The notes below the pieces were generated by a model. That model made no database searches, was not told the origin of the DNA, and was given only the letters and a program-made list of their open reading frames with translations. DNA of 12,028 nucleotides from an uncultured Eubacteriales bacterium (GTDB lineage Bacteria > Bacillota_A > Clostridia > Christensenellales > Aristaeellaceae), in NCBI GenBank assembly GCA_900313545.1, contig OMRS01000094.1:1-12028 (forward strand). The letters are read 5' to 3'. The position numbers were made by a program, and so were the translations under genes. Position 1 is the stretch's first letter; every line of letters begins with the position of its first letter. This document shows positions 3,815 through 11,153 of the stretch, piece by piece.

Positions 3815-4687
3815 ATGAAGATGAAGAAGAAACAGGGACTGGCACTGCTTGTTGTGGTCATGTGCCTGGTCATTTTCTCCGCCGTCGCGGAGCAGGACGT
3901 GAAGCATTACCTGATGCTTGGTGAGGACGGCTATGACAAGGTCATCAGGGAGGATGCCCGCACCGACACGGTGGTGCTGGTGACCCTGGATACCCGGTAC
4001 AACCGGATCATCTGCACCTCCATTCTCCGGGACAGCATGATCACCTCCCTGCGGGGGAACCCCATCAAGGTGAACGTGCTGTACAAGAACCTGGGCCTGG
4101 ACGGGATGGTGGAGTGCATCGAGCGCGCCCTGAAGATCGACATCGAGGGTGCGATTCTGGTCAACTTTGAGCATGTGAAGCCGGTCATCGACGCCCTGGG
4201 CGGCGTGGACCTGCAGATCGACATCAATGAGCTGATCGCCATCCGCAAGATCCTGCTGGGGAAGGACCCGAACATGCCCACCTCCCCCGGGATGGTCCAC
4301 ATGACCGGCAGAATCGCCCTGGCTTACATGCGGGACAGGAGCACGGGAATGGGGGATTTCTCCAGGACCCAGCGCCAGCGCAAGGTGGTCCGCCAGCTCT
4401 TTGACAAATGCCGCAGCCTCTCCCTGCCGGAGCTGATCGATGTGTACAACAGCGTCAGCGCGGGCATGGTGACCAACCTGTCCCAGATGGACATCATCGG
4501 GGTCATGGCCAGGGGCTACCAGCTGGTGGATGCCCACGCGGATTTTGTGGATTACCATATTCCCCAGCCGGGGACCTATTCCTACACCACACTGGACGGA
4601 TCCTCCGTGCTCGATGTGAGGTGGAACAAAAACGGCGAAAAGTTCCGGGCGATGCTGGAAACGCCGCCCGAAGGAGAGACGAAATGA
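3815..4687 (+). CDS. LytR-CpsA-Psr (LCP) family protein
   Basis: The LCP family transfers lipid-linked envelope polymers such as wall teichoic acid or capsule to peptidoglycan outside the membrane. The 290-residue product has a positively charged start (KMKKK), a hydrophobic segment (about 8-24) and then the catalytic domain directly. Family motifs are present in order: RTDT (49-52), SILRDS (69-74), KVNVLYKNLG (85-94), DALGGVDL (126-133), GRIALAYMRDR (165-175) and SRTQRQR (183-189), which supply the Arg/Asp residues that bind the polyprenyl pyrophosphate. SAVA before EQD (22-27) looks like a signal peptidase I site, so the protein might be released rather than anchored. The ribosome site is weak, suggesting coupling to the upstream gene. 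It overlaps the CapA-like gene by four bases. A start at 3821 is an alternative. Confidence 0.9.
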   Translation: MKMKKKQGLALLVVVMCLVIFSAVAEQDVKHYLMLGEDGYDKVIREDARTDTVVLVTLDTRYNRIICTSILRDSMITSLRGNPIKVNVLYKNLGLDGMVECIERALKIDIEGAILVNFEHVKPVIDALGGVDLQIDINELIAIRKILLGKDPNMPTSPGMVHMTGRIALAYMRDRSTGMGDFSRTQRQRKVVRQLFDKCRSLSLPELIDVYNSVSAGMVTNLSQMDIIGVMARGYQLVDAHADFVDYHIPQPGTYSYTTLDGSSVLDVRWNKNGEKFRAMLETPPEGETK

Positions 4688-5862
4688 GAAAATGGATCGG
4701 AGTGCTGATGGGGCTCCTGCTGGCCCTGCCCGCCTGCGCGGAGAAGCTGGACCTGAGCCAGTTTGAAGGGGGAGAACCCCCGGCGGCGGAGGTCTGGGAG
4801 CAGGCCCCCATGCCCCACTGGTACCAGCGCCCGGACGGCAGCGACGCCCGGGTGCTGCCCGACGGCAGCGTCATCGTGACCCTCAGCGCCACGGGGGACG
4901 TCACCATCGGCGGGGATACCCGGAAGAAGGGAAAGACGGTCTTTGACAAGCAGCTGGCCAAGCAGCCCTCGGGACTGGCCTTTCCCCTGGAGAACGTGAA
5001 GAGCATCTTTGAGGAGGATGACCTGACCCTGGTCAACTTCGAGGGGACCCTCACCACCACCAGAAGCGCCACGAAGAACACCTACTCCTTTGCGGCGCCG
5101 CCCCAGTACGTGGAGGTGCTCACCAGCTCCGGCGTGGAGGCGGTGAGCCTGGAAAACAACCATGTCATGGACCACGGTGAGGCGGGGTACGCCGAGACCT
5201 GCCAGACCCTGCAGGCGGCGGGGGTGCTGTACTGCGGGCATCTGGGTCCCGCGGTGTTCACCACGGACACCGGTGTCAGGGTGGGGCTTCTGGCCTACCA
5301 GACCTTCAACGGCAACTACAAGAACATCTATGAGAGCATCGAGGGGGATATCGCGGCGCTCAGGGGCCAGGGCTGCCAGATCGTCATCGTGTCCTACCAC
5401 TGGGGCGAGGAGCTCGATTATATTCCCAATGAGCGGCAGGTCCCCCTGGGACGGGCCACCATCGACGCGGGCGCGGATCTGGTGCTGGGGCACCACAGCC
5501 ACAGGATGAATCCCATCGAGGTGTACAATGGCAGGTACATCTGCTATTCCCTGGGCAATTTCTCCTTCGCGGGCAACGTGAAGCCCAAGGACATGGACAC
5601 CTTCATCTATCAGCAGCGCTTCAGGGTTTTCCCGGACGGGCATGCGGAAAATGCCGGGTTCAGGATCATCCCCTGCTCCATTTCCTCCATTCCCAAATCC
5701 AATGACTTCAAGCCCACGCCCAAGCAGACCCGGGAGGAGAAGGATGCCCTGCTGAACCGGCTGTATGAGCTCAACGGGAACTTTGAAAAGAAATACAGAA
5801 GCCTGGGTGTCACCGCGGTGGGGATCTATCCCACCGAATGGGACGCGGTGGCCCTGCAGTGA
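4684..5862 (+). CDS. CapA-family metallophosphatase-like protein
   Basis: The 392-residue product belongs to the CapA/PgsA family (PF09587), extracellular proteins with a calcineurin-like fold first known from poly-gamma-glutamate capsule systems; many relatives are not tied to capsules. A signal peptide (1-19) ends in PACA before EKL; C18 is a poor lipobox because Pro precedes the Ala. Metal-site motifs are seen in order: GDVTIGGD (71-78), NFEGTL (118-123), ENNHVMDHG (157-165), YHWGEE (238-243), GHHSH (269-273) and SLGNFSF (289-295), so the fold and metal site look intact. AAGGAGAG precedes the ATG, which overlaps the LCP stop (ATGA). No capB, capC or capD gene is nearby, so a poly-gamma-glutamate role is not supported. 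Pairing with LCP argues for a surface-polymer or wall role. Confidence 0.9.
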   Translation: MRKWIGVLMGLLLALPACAEKLDLSQFEGGEPPAAEVWEQAPMPHWYQRPDGSDARVLPDGSVIVTLSATGDVTIGGDTRKKGKTVFDKQLAKQPSGLAFPLENVKSIFEEDDLTLVNFEGTLTTTRSATKNTYSFAAPPQYVEVLTSSGVEAVSLENNHVMDHGEAGYAETCQTLQAAGVLYCGHLGPAVFTTDTGVRVGLLAYQTFNGNYKNIYESIEGDIAALRGQGCQIVIVSYHWGEELDYIPNERQVPLGRATIDAGADLVLGHHSHRMNPIEVYNGRYICYSLGNFSFAGNVKPKDMDTFIYQQRFRVFPDGHAENAGFRIIPCSISSIPKSNDFKPTPKQTREEKDALLNRLYELNGNFEKKYRSLGVTAVGIYPTEWDAVALQ

Positions 5863-6797
5863 GCCGCCATGACTGTCCCCCGGACCTGTGGGAGCTGCTG
5901 GAGCGGCTTGCCCGGGAAACCGGCCGCAGCCCCATGATGGCGGCGGCGGGGCGGGTTTCCCGGAGGTACAGGGAGGAAAAGGGAACCTCCCGGACCCTGA
6001 GGCGTCCTGAGGAGGCCCTGGCATATGCGCTCTCCCGGATGCCGGCCACCTATGGGGCGGCCCACGCCGCCCTGGAGGAGGCGCTTGAGCTGACGCCGGG
6101 GGTCAGGTCCCTGCTGGACTGCGGCTGCGGCACCGGAGCGGTGGTGCTGGCCGCGGGGGAGCTGACGGCCCTGCCGGAGTGCCGGGCGCTGGAGCGGGAA
6201 AGCGCCATGCGGGAGGTGGCGGCAAGGATCTTTTCGGAGCTGAACGTCCCCTGCGTCCCTGAAGAGGGGGATGTGCTGACCTCCCCGCTGCCCGGGGCGG
6301 ACCTGGTCACCTGCGGCTACGTGCTGGGGGAGCTGGCCCCGGAGGACCGCCTCCGGGCGGCGGAGCGGATGTTTGCCGCCTGCCGCAGGGGGCTTCTGCT
6401 GCTGGAGCCCGGAACCCCTGAAGGGTATCTGACCCTTGCCCGGGTGCGGCAGCACCTGGAGGCGGCGGGCGCCCGCGTGGCCGCCCCCTGTCCGGGGCGC
6501 TGCGCCCTGCCGGAGGGGGACTGGTGCCACTTTGCCGTGAGGGTCCAGCGCAGCCGGACCCATCGCCAGCTGAAGGAGGGCAGCGCGCCCTTTGAGGATG
6601 AGAAGTTTGCCTGGCTGTACCTGACCCGGGAGGACGTGAACCCGGGAGGGGCCAGGATCCTGCGCCACCCCAGGGTGGAGAGCGGGAAAATCACGCTGCG
6701 CCTGTGCGCGGACGGCAGCGTATGCGACCAGGAGGTCAGAAAAAAGGACCCGCTGTGGAAGCGGGCCCGGAAATGCGCCTGGGGAGAGAGGCTTTAG
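5859..6797 (+). CDS. Rsm22-family (METTL17-like) methyltransferase-type ribosome assembly factor
   Basis: The 312-residue product matches the bacterial Rsm22 family (PF09243), relatives of the mitochondrial small-subunit assembly factor METTL17/Rsm22. The family N-terminal motif MPATYGAAHAAL (61-72) is followed by the SAM-binding loop LDCGCGTGA (86-94) and an acidic residue at the end of the next strand. The highly conserved block DWCHFAVRVQRSR (221-233), then HRQLKEGSAPFEDEKF (235-250), is diagnostic. Cys211, Cys215 and Cys223, with Cys283 or Cys289, could supply the four ligands of the [4Fe-4S] cluster known in METTL17. I chose the GTG at 5859, which overlaps the capA-like stop (GTGA); an in-frame ATG at 5838 would overlap by 25 bases and has no ribosome site. 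It is last in the operon and its stop interlocks with the convergent ecf gene. Confidence 0.88.
   Translation: MSRHDCPPDLWELLERLARETGRSPMMAAAGRVSRRYREEKGTSRTLRRPEEALAYALSRMPATYGAAHAALEEALELTPGVRSLLDCGCGTGAVVLAAGELTALPECRALERESAMREVAARIFSELNVPCVPEEGDVLTSPLPGADLVTCGYVLGELAPEDRLRAAERMFAACRRGLLLLEPGTPEGYLTLARVRQHLEAAGARVAAPCPGRCALPEGDWCHFAVRVQRSRTHRQLKEGSAPFEDEKFAWLYLTREDVNPGGARILRHPRVESGKITLRLCADGSVCDQEVRKKDPLWKRARKCAWGERL
6740..6768 (-). terminator. Intrinsic terminator of the ECF gene, inside the rsm22 coding region
   Basis: On the - strand the arms 6768-6760 and 6754-6746 form a 9-bp stem (one G-U) with a five-base loop, followed by six T residues (A run 6745-6740). On the + strand the same pair is an A-C mismatch and there is no T run, so it acts in one direction only. 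It begins 26 bases past the ECF stop codon and lies within codons of rsm22. Confidence 0.8.
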
Positions 6798-7366
6798 CGA
6801 AGGTCAAGGACGCCCGCCCTGCGAAGCGCGGGCCGGATGGCGGCATAGAAGATGGGCGCCACGATGGTGGCAAAGAGCGCGTTGATGGCGCTGCCCGGCA
6901 GCTTGCTGAGCATCTTGGCCAGGGTGCCGGACATGGTGAGGCCGTTGACGCTGAGGCCGAAGATGAAGGTCTTGAGCATGTACAGGGCCACATAGGCAAA
7001 GGCGCCCGCGGCGCTTCCGAGGACGATGAGGGCGTGGTCGCTGCCGGACATGGGCTCGCGGGGCAGGATCCTGTAGGCGATGAGGCCCGCGATGAGGCCG
7101 ATGGCGCCCTTGCTCACAAAGGTGATCAGGCACTCCGCGCCGTAGCCGGCGACGATGTCATACAGCATGGACCCGATTCCGGAGGAAAGGAATCCCGCGG
7201 CAGGCCCGAACAGCAGCCCGGACAGGACGCACAGGGCATTGGTCATGTGCACCTGGGTCCCCAGGAACGGGAAACGGAAATAGTTGAGCACGAAGATCAT
7301 GGCGGACATCATGCCAATCACGGTGATGGAAAGCGTGGCATGCCGCGAGGCGGCGGAGCTGTTCAT
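6794..7366 (-). CDS. ECF transporter S component (substrate unknown)
   Basis: The 190-residue, very hydrophobic product has the size and about six membrane helices of an S component, the substrate-binding subunit of energy-coupling-factor vitamin transporters; it would work with shared EcfA, EcfA' and EcfT subunits encoded elsewhere. Typical features are the N-terminal helix followed by FRFPFLGTQVHMTNAL (31-46), SGLLFGPAAGFLSSGIGSMLYD (49-70), and a Gly/Ala-rich helix (about 86-98). The ATG at 7366 is preceded by GGGAGG with six bases of spacing; the longer in-frame reading upstream is hydrophilic and crosses the promoter. The exact vitamin or cation cannot be decided: no binding residues or riboswitch were recognised. 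The gene is alone on this strand, convergent with rsm22 and divergent from the membrane glycosyltransferase. Confidence 0.82.
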   Translation of the reverse strand: MNSSAASRHATLSITVIGMMSAMIFVLNYFRFPFLGTQVHMTNALCVLSGLLFGPAAGFLSSGIGSMLYDIVAGYGAECLITFVSKGAIGLIAGLIAYRILPREPMSGSDHALIVLGSAAGAFAYVALYMLKTFIFGLSVNGLTMSGTLAKMLSKLPGSAINALFATIVAPIFYAAIRPALRRAGVLDLR

Positions 7367-7399
7367 GGAAAGCCTCCCTTTCTCTTGTTGAATGGGAGC

Positions 7400-7427
7400 A
7401 GTATAGCACAATCTGGCGTGACGTGAA
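7400..7427 (-). promoter_or_regulatory. Extended -10 promoter of the ECF gene
   Basis: On the - strand, TTCACG (7427-7422) and TATACT (7405-7400) are 16 bases apart, and TGC directly before TATACT gives a perfect extended -10. The -35 hexamer lies between the two arms of an inverted repeat (see the repeat at 7411-7467), a placement typical of operators. Confidence 0.6.
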
Positions 7428-7467
7428 GAGCCAGATAATGAAAGTTTACCCATGCCAGATGATCTGG
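7411..7467. repeat. Cluster of four ATCTGGC/GCCAGAT half-sites (possible operator)
   Basis: ATCTGGC (7411-7417) and GCCAGAT (7430-7436) form an inverted repeat with a 12-base gap. A second GCCAGAT (7454-7460) pairs with ATCTGG (7462-7467) across one base. The two inverted repeats lie about 37 bases apart centre to centre, in the gap between divergent genes. The first brackets the ECF -35 box. The same elements could instead pair as alternative hairpins in the leader of the + strand gene. Confidence 0.5.
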
Positions 7468-7488: not shown

Positions 7489-8883
7489 ATGAAACAACGT
7501 CGGATAGCCCTGTTCGCAGGCCTGAGTTTCCTCGTGTTTCTGGGATATTCCCTGTACATGAGGGTCGGACTGGAGCGGCTTGCGCAGGGGCAGGAATGGA
7601 TGATGTCCCTGATTTTCACAGGGATTTTTTCTGTTTCCCTGCTTCTTGCGGTGAAACTGGCCTGCAGAACCCGCCGGGAGATGGTGCAAACTGGCATGGT
7701 CATCTTCCTGTCGCTGACGGCCAGACTGGTGATGCTGGATTTTGTCTCCAGCGACTACACCTCCTTTCTCAGCCTGTGGACCGAGATCTTCCGGAAGGAG
7801 GGCTTCCGCGCGCTGGGAGAAAACATCGGGGACTACAACCTGCTCTACCAGTACGCGCTGCTGATGATCGCCAAAGGGCCCCTGCCGGACCTGTACATGA
7901 TCAAGGTGTTTTCCCTCGTGTTTGACTATGCGCTGGCCCTGACGGTCATGCAGCTGGCGGGACTCTTCGGGGGAGAGAAGGCAAAGCTGCCGGCGCTGTA
8001 TGTGCTGCTGCTGCTGCCCACGGTGCTGCTGGATGGCGCCTGCTGGGGCCAGTGCGACAGCGTGTACGCGTTTTTGATCATGCTCTCCCTGTACCTGCTG
8101 AAAACGGAGCACCCCGTGGGCGCGGCCAGCGCGCTGTCCCTGGCCTTTGCCTTCAAGCTCCAGACCATCTTCTTCTTCCCCGTGGTGCTGCTGGCACTCT
8201 TTACCGGGGAATACCGGCTGCGCCATGCCCTGGCGTTTGCGGCGGCCTACCTGGTGACCCTGATCCCCGCCCTGATGGCGGGGCGGCCCTTCATGGATGC
8301 ACTGTCGGTCTATGCCAACCAGTCCATGGGGCAGTACTACCACCGGCTGACCTACAATGCCCCCAGCCTCTACACCTTTTTCCCCATGCTGCACATCGCC
8401 AGCACCCAGGAATTCACCTGGATGAGGTACATCGGGGGGATCAACAGGGACGGGACCAATGAATACCTGACGGAGGCGCTGTTCCCCACGCTGCAGAATG
8501 CGGCGCTGCTGGCCAGCGTGCTGCTGGTGGGCATCCTGGTGGTCTACTGGGTTGTGCACAGGGACCGGATCCGCCGGGAGGACACCCTGAATTTTGCCCT
8601 GTTCTGCGCGATCCTGCTGCCCTTTGTCATGCCGAAGATCCATGACCGGTATTTCTATCTTGCCGACATCCTCTCGGTGCTCTATGCCCTGCAGCGAAGG
8701 GACAGGCGCTTTGTCCCGGTACTGGTGGTCACCGCCTCCCTGATGAGCTACACCACCTTCCTCATGCGCCAGAGGCCCTTTGACGAGCGGGTGCTGAGCC
8801 TGATGATGGGCACGGCGCTGGTGGTGTGCGGGCGGGACCTGCTGTTGACCATGCGCGCCCGCGCGGGGAGGGTGGAAGCATGA
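7489..8883 (+). CDS. Gpi18/PIG-V-like integral membrane mannosyltransferase (GT-C fold)
   Basis: The 464-residue product has about ten membrane helices and fits the bacterial family related to Gpi18/PIG-V mannosyltransferases (COG5542 type), which use polyprenyl-phosphate sugars on the outer face of the membrane. Motifs in order: an early loop SSDYTSFLSLW (87-97) with the candidate catalytic Asp89, GDYNLLYQY (114-122), IKVFSLVFDY (138-147), CWGQCDSVYAF (185-195), FAFKLQTIFF (220-229) and, late in the protein, KIHDRYFYLAD (383-393). The acceptor is unknown: lipid, wall polymer or protein. The ATG at 7489 has only a distant GGAG (7473-7476); upstream in-frame starts have no better site and cross the half-site cluster. 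The next gene overlaps by four bases (ATGA), so it heads an operon. Confidence 0.82.
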   Translation: MKQRRIALFAGLSFLVFLGYSLYMRVGLERLAQGQEWMMSLIFTGIFSVSLLLAVKLACRTRREMVQTGMVIFLSLTARLVMLDFVSSDYTSFLSLWTEIFRKEGFRALGENIGDYNLLYQYALLMIAKGPLPDLYMIKVFSLVFDYALALTVMQLAGLFGGEKAKLPALYVLLLLPTVLLDGACWGQCDSVYAFLIMLSLYLLKTEHPVGAASALSLAFAFKLQTIFFFPVVLLALFTGEYRLRHALAFAAAYLVTLIPALMAGRPFMDALSVYANQSMGQYYHRLTYNAPSLYTFFPMLHIASTQEFTWMRYIGGINRDGTNEYLTEALFPTLQNAALLASVLLVGILVVYWVVHRDRIRREDTLNFALFCAILLPFVMPKIHDRYFYLADILSVLYALQRRDRRFVPVLVVTASLMSYTTFLMRQRPFDERVLSLMMGTALVVCGRDLLLTMRARAGRVEA

Positions 8884-10259
8884 ACAAGAGAAAATGGATG
8901 GAGATGCTCCTGCCCCCGGTCCTGGCGCTTGTGTGCGCCGGCGGGTTCTTTGCATGGAACATCCGCCTGGGGCCCCTCAGCAACCTCAACGATATCGGCG
9001 GCTGGGACAGACGGCTGCTGTTCATGACCGCCGCCTCGGCGGTGCTCTTTGCGCTGCTCCTGCTGCCCTTTGCCCTTTCCCGCTCCCGGGGCGTGCTCCG
9101 GGTGCTGCTGCGCCAGGGGATCCTGATGGCGGGCATGGTCATCTACCTTCTGGCCATCAACCAGAAGACCTACGCCTATACCACCCAGATCCAGCCATTG
9201 CTGCGAAAGCTCCAGGCCGGCGGGCTGGGCGCGCTGCCCGCGGACAGCCCTGTGAGCGCCCCCATGGCCCTGCTGCTCATGGGCGTGACCCGGTTCCCGT
9301 CCTATGATATGTACAGCGTCAAGCTGGTCAGCGTGTTCTGCGTGCTGGCCGCCGCCTGCATCGCCGGACATCTGGCGGATGAGGAGCGGATGGGCCTTCG
9401 GGCGGAGGCGACGCTGGTGCTGTGCGTGATTCTGCCCCAGGCCTTTCTGTCCTCCGCCTGCGCGGCGCAGCTGGACAGCGTGGCGCTGCTGTTTGCCGCC
9501 CTCGCCCTCCTGTCCTGGCGCAGCGGGCGCCGGACCCCGGCGGCGGTGCTGCTGGGGGTCGCCGCCACGCTGAACCTGGTCTTTGCCGCAGGCTTTGTCC
9601 TGATGGTCCTGGAGGGGGGACGCAGGGAGCTTCTGCCGGGCCTGTGCCCCGCGGCGGCGGGGGTGCTCCTTTGCACCCTGGCCGGGCTGTCCCCGCTGAG
9701 GGCGGCAGGCAGCCTGCTTGCGCCGCTGCTTTCCCCGCCCTTTGCCAAGGGCGGCATGCCCACCCTGGCCTCCATCATTCCCTACGCGAGGCCCTCGGAG
9801 ATGCCCTCCTGGTTCCTGATTCACGCGCTGCCCCATGCCCAGCTGGAGGTGGAGGAGACCCTGGTCTATACGCCGGAGCATGTGGTGCTCCTGCAGCGGG
9901 GCATGGCGGTGGCCGGCCTGGGAGTGCTGGCGGCCCTGCTGCCCCGGATGCTGGAGCGGCTCCGGGGGAACGAGCGGCTCCTCGGGGTCCTGCTGCTCTC
10001 GCTCATGTGCGTGCCGGGCACCTCGGCGGCCTGCTGGCTGTCGGTGTGCTTTGTCGCGGTGCTGATCGTGCAGAAGGGGCCCTCCCGGCTGCGCATTCCC
10101 GCGGCGGCGGTGCTGCTGGGAATCGCGGGGGGCGCGGCGTATCCCGTGACGGGGGAGACCATGGTGCCCGCCGGGGCGCTGTGGCTGGGCGCCATTGTGC
10201 TGCTGCTGGGGATCGCCGGGGTGATCCCGTTCCCGGGAGGTGCCCGCGATGGAGAATGA
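8880..10259 (+). CDS. Polytopic membrane protein, degenerate paralogue of the preceding GT-C protein
   Basis: The 459-residue product is mostly membrane helix (about eleven to twelve segments, rich in Leu, Ala and Gly). Its helix order and several stretches follow the preceding protein: YSVKLVSVFCVLAAA (145-159) against YMIKVFSLVFDYALA, and SSACAAQLDSVALLFAALAL (191-210) against DGACWGQCDSVYAF. The residues expected to be catalytic are gone: the early Asp-Tyr is KTY (96-98), the DYN motif is absent, WGQCDS is AAQLDS, KLQ is TLN and the late HDRYFY is missing. I infer a diverged paralogue, perhaps a non-catalytic partner of the first. GGAGGG with seven-base spacing and the ATGA overlap make the start firm and suggest equal expression of the pair. 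It could also be a GT-C protein with different motifs. Confidence 0.7.
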   Translation: MNKRKWMEMLLPPVLALVCAGGFFAWNIRLGPLSNLNDIGGWDRRLLFMTAASAVLFALLLLPFALSRSRGVLRVLLRQGILMAGMVIYLLAINQKTYAYTTQIQPLLRKLQAGGLGALPADSPVSAPMALLLMGVTRFPSYDMYSVKLVSVFCVLAAACIAGHLADEERMGLRAEATLVLCVILPQAFLSSACAAQLDSVALLFAALALLSWRSGRRTPAAVLLGVAATLNLVFAAGFVLMVLEGGRRELLPGLCPAAAGVLLCTLAGLSPLRAAGSLLAPLLSPPFAKGGMPTLASIIPYARPSEMPSWFLIHALPHAQLEVEETLVYTPEHVVLLQRGMAVAGLGVLAALLPRMLERLRGNERLLGVLLLSLMCVPGTSAACWLSVCFVAVLIVQKGPSRLRIPAAAVLLGIAGGAAYPVTGETMVPAGALWLGAIVLLLGIAGVIPFPGGARDGE

Positions 10260-10635
10260 GCGCAGGGTCCGCCTGATGATCCGAAGGGGACAGGACAGGC
10301 ACGCCTGCTTTGCGCGGATGCGTGAAGAGGGGGAAGCCCTGATCTTCGCCTATTCGGACCGGGGCGGCGAGGGAGAATTCCCGGTGGTCCTGAGGCTGGG
10401 CGGCGGGCGCATGGAGATCACCCGGGAGGGTGAAATGAAGGGGACGCTGGTCCTGGAGCCCGGGAAGCGGCACGCCTTCGCCTATGAAACGCCCTACGGG
10501 TCCTGGCCCATGGAGGCACGGTGCAGCTTCCTGACTTTCAGCAGGGAGGGACGGCGGGCTGAGGCCGCCTATGAGATTTTCTCCGCGGGAGAGAGAACGG
10601 TGCAGCAGGTGATGGAGCTGATATGGAAAGACTGA
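10249..10635 (+). CDS. DUF1934 (YwiB-like) beta-barrel protein
   Basis: The 128-residue cytoplasmic product fits DUF1934, small calycin-like beta-barrels of unknown function (YwiB in Bacillus). It is a succession of short beta strands with the family's recognisable centre: RMEITREGEMKGTLVLEPG (54-72), then the YETPYGSWPMEA stretch (79-90) before the last strands AAYEIFSAGER. In Bacillus ywiB neighbours argS; here no argS follows. GGGAGG (10235-10240) lies eight bases before the ATG, which overlaps the preceding stop by 11 bases, so it is translated from the same message. An in-frame GTG at 10240 sits on the ribosome site and is rejected. The end is unusual: the last strand is replaced by a helical QQVMELIWKD tail whose codons overlap the next start. 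Confidence 0.72.
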   Translation: MENERRVRLMIRRGQDRHACFARMREEGEALIFAYSDRGGEGEFPVVLRLGGGRMEITREGEMKGTLVLEPGKRHAFAYETPYGSWPMEARCSFLTFSREGRRAEAAYEIFSAGERTVQQVMELIWKD

Positions 10636-11153
10636 CCGGGATCCGGTGCCGAAATGAAATCCGCGGACTGCTCAGGGAACGGGCAGTCCGCGGATTTGTG
10701 CGTTTTTCGGATCAGGAGGGGCTGCTGGCAAGCGATGCCCCCAGATGGAACCGCTCCCTCGGGGACCTGGGGGAGGACCTTGCGCAAAGGGGCTACCTCC
10801 ACGTCCTGCAGGGGGAGCTGCTCCTTGTGACGCCGGGGCCGGAGCTGCTGTGCAGAAGGTGCGGGGAGATTCCCCCGGCCCTTCCGGAGCTTTCGGAGGA
10901 CGCCCCCCAGCGGCTGTTCCTGGCCGCGAGGTTCCTGCGCTTTCCGGCGGAAAGGCCGGACAGGGACGGGGTGGAGCTGTGCGCTCTGGCCATGAAGGCC
11001 AGGCAGGATGAGGCCAGGTGGCTCCCCCGCCTGCGGGAACACGCCGCCCTCATGCAGAGGCGGCGCAGCACGTCGGGGTTTGCCCAGGCGGGCCTTCTGC
11101 TGCTGGAAGGGGATCAGGAAAGCTGTTTCTCCCCCAGCATGAGGGTGCAGTAG
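10623..11153 (+). CDS. Uncharacterised 176-residue protein
   Basis: I do not recognise this protein. The ATG at 10623 overlaps the DUF1934 stop by 13 bases, with a GGAG five bases before it. Composition is natural for the organism: leucine- and arginine-rich, cytoplasmic, no membrane helix. Residues 45-71 (SLGDLGEDLAQRGYLHVLQG then LLLVTPG) read as a helix followed by a beta hairpin, reminiscent of a winged-helix wing, but this is weak. Cys77 and Cys80 form a lone CxxC. The first 25 codons contain a perfect 15-bp hairpin followed by a T-rich stretch, so the true start could be the GTG at 10698, or the gene may be limited by attenuation. Its last 40 bases overlap the convergent nucleotidase gene. 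The competing - strand frame has an implausible composition. Confidence 0.55.
   Translation: MERLTGIRCRNEIRGLLRERAVRGFVRFSDQEGLLASDAPRWNRSLGDLGEDLAQRGYLHVLQGELLLVTPGPELLCRRCGEIPPALPELSEDAPQRLFLAARFLRFPAERPDRDGVELCALAMKARQDEARWLPRLREHAALMQRRRSTSGFAQAGLLLLEGDQESCFSPSMRVQ
10657..10707 (+). terminator. Possible terminator or attenuator after the DUF1934 gene
   Basis: Perfect 15-base arms (10657-10671 and 10683-10697) flank an 11-base loop. The right arm ends in ATTT and is followed by GTGCG and TTTTT, so the U-rich tail is interrupted. It starts 21 bases after the DUF1934 stop, where a terminator would be expected, but it lies within the first codons of the next ORF. Confidence 0.5.

Follow-up and report, generated by a model that had tools for sequence, protein, structure and literature searches.

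A GT87-type GT-C glycosyltransferase gene in Clostridia and its adjoining paralogue that has lost the catalytic residues: a candidate non-catalytic partner

The DNA considered here, 12,028 nucleotides of contig OMRS01000094.1 (assembly GCA_900313545.1) from an uncultured Eubacteriales bacterium, is called the window. It encodes two adjacent membrane proteins, p1 and p2, both predicted to have the GT-C glycosyltransferase fold. p1 carries the motifs expected of an active enzyme, and p2 is a paralogue stripped of them. The features on which the argument turns are as follows.

7489..8883, + strand: p1, a GT87-family GT-C glycosyltransferase of 464 amino acids, motifs intact
8865..8872, + strand: Shine-Dalgarno-like GGGGAGGG within the 3' end of p1, read from the sequence
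8880..8883, + strand: ATGA, the 4-base overlap of the p1 stop and the p2 start, a layout of translational coupling
8880..10259, + strand: p2, the catalytically stripped GT-C paralogue of p1, 459 amino acids, without an assigned family
8970..9002, + strand: p2 residues 31-41, outer loop GPLSNLNDIGG, linking helices one and two
9159..9176, + strand: p2 residues 94-99, N-Q-K-T-Y-A, opening juxtamembrane helix 1; Asn and Ala replace D84 and D89 of p1

An earlier note on this DNA had drawn attention to the four-base overlap and to a strong ribosome site for p2. Both are there, with GGGGAGGG lying 7 bases 5' of the p2 ATG. Inspection by eye of the printed contexts of related loci also finds G/A-rich stretches, such as AAGGGAGG, 5' of the p2 start.

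Homology of p1 and p2 and loss of the catalytic set

What kind of enzyme does p1 resemble? It scores 41.4 bits against the Pfam family PF09594 (GT87), for which the cut-off is 25, and this is its only Pfam match up to an expectation value (E) of 10; the PIG-V family gives no match in that range. The motifs quoted in the earlier note are all present: D84, D89-Y90, G114-D-Y-N117, W186-G-Q-C-D190, K223-L-Q225, and H385-D-R-Y-F389. The note had labeled them Gpi18/PIG-V-type, a label that is rejected here, as they are GT87 motifs and not specifically those of Gpi18 or PIG-V. In the predicted model, D89 stands at the start of helix 88-104, and p1 possesses what distinguishes GT87 members, a catalytic Asp at the tip of juxtamembrane helix 1 together with a donor-site Lys and His. 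The mycobacterial mannosyltransferase PimE (PDB 9dm5), which we take to be a GT87 member, offers a point of reference. By topology, D89, K223, and H385 of p1 are equivalent to D58, K195, and H322 of PimE, which itself stands outside the alignment. According to excerpts of the PimE study, D58, at the tip of juxtamembrane helix 1, is the proposed base, and the enzyme is inactive with D58A/N or K195A and less active with H322A (PMC12041525).

Since p1 and p2 are both hydrophobic, family profiles were compared in addition to the single sequences. BLASTP with filters off aligns the two proteins at 27% over 252 amino acids, and their local alignment score of 112 compares with a maximum of 76 among 500 block shuffles. 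Profile against profile, the two families score 176 (probability 99.5, E 6.9e-23, 414 columns); the reversed p1 profile scores 20 and eight block-shuffled profiles score 36-46, controls by which chance similarity between membrane proteins is rejected. The segments YSVKLVSVF and LDSVALLFAALAL, both found in p2, belong to the local similarity that the note had described. AlphaFold2 models of p2 (predicted local distance difference test [pLDDT], 85; predicted template modeling score [pTM], 0.88) and p1 (pLDDT, 80; pTM, 0.85) have a closely similar helix order, with the juxtamembrane helices following the third long helix. p2 has the GT-C transmembrane architecture with its two juxtamembrane helices, and the models, each searched separately, match the same GT-C structures. 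The note had named a lack of structural superposition as a refuting result; the agreement found here runs through these shared matches, a direct superposition of p1 on p2 lying outside the comparison. p2 has two extra N-terminal helices, and most of its GT-C structural matches start at residue 64-77. p2 is, in short, a full-length paralogue of p1 with the same fold. The pairing is easily missed in databases because the p2 of the window is given no name there: it has no Pfam match up to E 10 and no NCBIfam match. It falls below the PF09594 cut-off, and 5 of 39 p2-family members reach E 0.01 against that family (best, 1.3e-4).

The difference between the two families lies in the active site. Asp89, Lys223, and His385 are kept in 120 of the 120 p1 matches listed (618 were found). 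Their equivalents are kept in 0 of 42 p2 matches, one of which has a gap at the His, so the catalytic Asp and donor-site Lys/His of GT87 are missing throughout. The protein of the window itself is counted in each set, and three of the 42 matches are short. The p2 alignment holds 38 of the 42 plus the window, or 39 rows (omitted were the window's own copy, P0001, and the short P0002, P0041, and P0042); for p1, 34 of the 120 listed matches, hand-picked for spread, were aligned with the window. Several replacements are fixed: Asn for D84 (42/42), Ser for N117 (42/42), and Trp for F389 (39/39). The donor-site Lys, His, and Arg and the WGQC motif are all gone, as are the residues that PimE needs. 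Y136 and K139 are retained (39/39 each), and the position of p1 D190 is acidic in 41 of 42 (25 Asp, 16 Glu). The motif loss reported for the single p2 of the window is fixed across the p2 family, and it supports the view that p2 is non-catalytic by known GT-C chemistry.

Linkage, constraint, and gene neighborhood

Does p2 travel with p1? A search of 84,980 species, each represented by one genome, made with two peptide patterns, found 24 p2 loci. In 22 of them the gene immediately 5' of p2, in the same orientation, is p1, and in the remaining two p2 is at a contig end; p1 thus adjoins p2 wherever adjacency is visible. The survey that the earlier note had suggested, of adjacency and of conserved motif loss, bears it out on both counts (22/22 loci; 42/42 matches). 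Starting from p1 gives a similar picture. A family sample of 200 genomes contains 11 with a close p1 (E below 1e-229), four of them already met through the p2 search. p2 is next to p1 in 10, and the eleventh p1 reaches the edge of its contig. Among the 21 loci that could be measured, 16 have a frame overlap of exactly 4 bases (-4) and four have values from -25 to +1; in the last (L002) no ATG or GTG is found near the p1 stop by the script's rule. This count excludes L016, L023, and L024 as unmeasurable, and L035-L044 stand outside it, five being identical in score to counted loci and five having no readout, probably owing to orientation. One genome, G007, carries the pair twice on different contigs (L019 and L033), though the assembly may be mixed.

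p2 is under constraint, though less than p1. Its reading frame is open over the full length in 21 of the 24 loci and is interrupted by a stop codon in none; the remaining three are truncated at contig ends (L016 and L024) or disrupted by a string of N (L023). Thirty-six positions are invariant across the 39 rows. Twenty-three of these fall in outer loops and juxtamembrane stretches, which together account for 155 of the 459 residues (hypergeometric, 1e-4), regions that we set from the p2 model; the outer face is that predicted from the helix order with the N terminus taken as inside. The ratio of nonsynonymous to synonymous substitution (dN/dS) in the two closest pairs, the only ones used, is 0.38 and 0.33 for p2 and 0.23 and 0.15 for p1, by a simple counting method on stop-to-stop frames in GC-rich genomes. 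Apparent p2 values reach 0.96 among the more distant of the 18 pairs printed, and overall conservation is lower in p2 than in p1. The strongest invariant stretch is GPLSNLNDIGGW, in the loop between helices one and two, where G31, L33, and N35-G40 are invariant in the 39 rows. The fragment at L023 reads NLHDIG, which retains the Asp but shows the loop to be less than fully invariant.

The distribution of p2 looks restricted. The genomes that bear it are labeled Clostridia or Clostridiales metagenome-assembled genomes, several from the animal gut and including Candidatus Ventricola. Full-strength p2 was found only in G003 (the center) and G006 in an order sample of 396 genomes, and only in G003 itself in a class sample of 291, absences that are not exhaustive because in each genome only a share of the initial candidates was scored (for example, 4 of 17). 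Many loci share a gene order: LCP, PGA_cap, Rsm22-like, ECF S component (other strand), p1, p2, and DUF1934. The other genes of the window are these.

3815-7453: LCP family gene, PGA_cap gene, Rsm22-like methyltransferase gene, and ECF transporter S component (other strand), the conserved neighborhood
10249-11153: DUF1934 gene overlapping the p2 end, then a 176-amino-acid frame without a Pfam match
1496-2764, - strand: TelA family gene (PF05816, 381 bits)
707-1246: DUF1269 gene adjoining the TelA gene

Relatives of the DUF1934 gene and of the 176-amino-acid frame both occur 3' of p2 in several related loci.

Other GT-C tandems and the origin of p2

Three further genomes (L045-L047) contain a p1-like gene, OG1, followed directly by a GT-C gene, OG2, in a neighborhood unlike that of p1/p2. 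Between L046 and L047, the OG2 proteins share 97% identity. Against the p2 profile OG2 scores 95-110 bits, over the full length where printed (L046 and L047), and the p1 profile matches it more strongly, at 171-192 bits; the p2 profile also matches the OG1 of L048 (103 bits) and L049 (98 bits), which are unpaired. By eye, the downstream order at L049 resembles that of L045-L047 minus OG2. A gene that looks by eye like a response regulator lies downstream of the OG1-OG2 pair. OG2 is an intermediate in its residues, with the catalytic Asp kept in 7/7 and the Lys and His each in 0/7. The motif GPLxNL is common to p2 and OG2, while the DIG part of the p2 loop, with Asp38, is found only in p2 (0/7 in OG2).

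An unrooted tree, thinned to 11 p2 and 10 p1 rows, places p2 and OG2 on one side of a branch (99/99). They stay together (94/98) when the motif columns and the long window row are removed, so long-branch attraction is made less likely, though it is still possible. Recent duplication, lineage by lineage, was rejected by approximately unbiased (AU) tests (p-AU 0.021 for grouping p1 with p2; 0.006 for grouping OG1 of L045-L047 with OG2), tests that are weak because the groups were defined with the tree already in view and because its branches are long. For the latter reason the tree evidence for one old duplication is fair, not final. Judged from these sequences, p2 and OG2 look like the products of one old duplication that decayed stepwise, the donor site first and the base last.

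A second kind of tandem cluster, three GT87-like genes A-B-C (L025-L031, e.g., L025 3249-7404), is present in the same genomes as p1/p2, in 7 of 9 searched; only other arrangements were seen in G001 and G004. Over these seven loci, A and C keep the catalytic Asp (7/7 each). The middle gene, B, has Arg for the Asp (7/7) and Asn for the His (7/7) and keeps the Lys of KLQ (7/7). A and B overlap by 4 bases in six of the seven. In the tree, which took four of these loci, B does not group with p2, and a dead GT-C copy beside active ones therefore seems to have arisen twice. A PAS/HTH regulator gene lies next to the triplet in L025.

A possible non-catalytic partner and its parallels

How might such a pair work? 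p1 would be an active GT-C (GT87) transferase that depends on a polyprenyl-phosphate sugar and adds the sugar on the outer face of the membrane; we infer its activity, as well as the nature of sugar and acceptor, from its family. p2 would derive from an old duplication of such an enzyme, having lost the donor-phosphate Lys and His first and the catalytic Asp afterwards, and would survive as a non-catalytic GT-C subunit whose production is tied to that of p1. The two would most probably pair as a heterodimer, in which p2, much like PIG-U, might use its conserved outer face to take hold of the lipid-linked acceptor or product, orient it, or hand it on, or else to scaffold p1. That the former cavity of p2 is used would be our own guess and lies outside this parallel, because the channel of PIG-U is closed and its substrates bind at the side. 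Taken whole, a non-catalytic partner that handles a lipid-linked substrate or scaffolds p1 is the best explanation, with a probability of roughly 60%. The earlier note had proposed a catalytic subunit with a pseudo-enzyme partner, perhaps for substrate presentation. Its observation was right, and its interpretation is plausible, better founded than before, and reaches beyond this window: the common fold, full-length homology, fixed loss, linkage, and overlap all stand, whereas contact between p1 and p2 and the presentation of a substrate are still what we infer.

Two points weigh against this explanation, and each feeds a rival. The first is that linkage and overlap speak only indirectly for a p1-p2 complex. 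p2 could be non-catalytic and act in the same pathway outside any complex with p1, as a lipid-glycan binding protein, a flippase-like helper, or the subunit of some other partner, with linkage reflecting co-regulation only. It has its own invariant outer surface, and the partners of PIG-U in the GPI (glycosylphosphatidylinositol) transamidase are not GT-C enzymes. The adjacent frames overlap, however, and the pair turns up together in two distinct gene neighborhoods, which leaves this alternative unlikely but a serious one.

The second point is Asp38, which is present in 42 of 42 p2 matches within the extra outer loop specific to p2 and might be a relocated catalytic site. The earlier note had named an intact catalytic Asp elsewhere as a finding that would tell against its own reading; the old site is lost in 42/42, but Asp38 is there, and the distant relatives OG2 keep the original Asp. 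p2 could still be an enzyme if Asp38 in the NLNDIG loop replaced the lost Asp and the invariant K96, R109, or K148 replaced the donor-phosphate residues. As Asp38 occurs in 0/7 and the old Asp in 7/7 OG2 proteins, gain of the one and loss of the other go together, and the loop would be on the outer face if the helix order of the model is read with the N terminus inside. The loop, however, connects two N-terminal helices and is not part of the canonical GT-C core; the donor-site Lys, His, and Arg and the WGQC motif are gone too; and nearly the whole loop is invariant rather than Asp38 alone, which a contact surface fits as well. A rebuilt site is accordingly improbable. That p2 is a functionless, slowly decaying relic of a tandem duplication, as its lost motifs, lower conservation, and the long branch of the window p2 might suggest, is very improbable given that 21 of 24 frames are full length and none has a stop, that 39 sequences share 36 invariant positions, that dN/dS stays well below 1 in the closest pairs, and that replacements are fixed.

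A bolder version of the non-catalytic partner can be put forward only tentatively, and we would sooner bet against it than for it. This lineage may have built complexes of an active GT-C and its dead twin repeatedly (p1/p2, the half-decayed OG1/OG2, and, separately, A-B-C), with the NLNDIG loop of p2 holding the lipid-linked acceptor as a bacterial counterpart of PIG-U reached independently. To our knowledge, GT-C enzymes are mostly viewed as catalytic chains that act singly or in complexes with helpers unrelated to them, and a dead GT-C twin is known mainly from PIG-U. Among the open-licence literature matches listed, none reported a pair of bacterial GT-C proteins of which one is a pseudo-enzyme.

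Among known systems, PIG-U/Gab1 (PDB 7w72_U and 8imx_U), a subunit of the GPI transamidase, is like p2 in having a GT-C fold with a lost DxD, and it is the best structural match of p2, narrowly above the enzyme PimE. Excerpts of the relevant papers describe PIG-U as a GT-C protein whose DxD has become SSW and which scaffolds the transamidase and contacts the glycolipid (PMC12653191, PMC9098846, PMC7801869), the transamidase being conserved among eukaryotes (PMC9098846). PIG-U is eukaryotic and its partners are a protease and other subunits, whereas p2 adjoins a GT87 enzyme and has two extra N-terminal helices. Homology of p2 to PIG-U was not found by Pfam or by the p2 family profile against PDB sequences, a search in which neither that profile nor the p1 family profile matched anything meaningful; p2 may work like PIG-U, yet by the sequence tests made it is outside the PIG-U family. 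The earlier note had chosen PIG-M/PIG-X and Gpi18/Pga1 as its eukaryotic parallels, and PIG-U is closer. In GPI mannosyltransferase I (Gpi14/PIG-M with Pbn1/PIG-X; PDB 9wno), Pbn1 at least differs in architecture, being in the excerpts available a single-pass protein with a soluble domain and no GT-C paralogue. A pseudo-enzyme partner of PimE is not mentioned in the excerpts of its study (PMC12041525).

A further likeness is to Pmt1-Pmt2 and EmbA-EmbB, complexes of two paralogous GT-C chains, as is proposed for p1/p2. Pmt1-Pmt2 came up as a structural match in one model search and EmbA-EmbB in those of both p1 and p2. In these two complexes, both chains have active-site residues. In p1/p2, one chain has lost them. 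If the proposed reading is true, this bacterial pair and its half-decayed relatives would show how dead GT-C subunits originate, and p1/p2 would be a simple two-gene system for testing what such subunits do.
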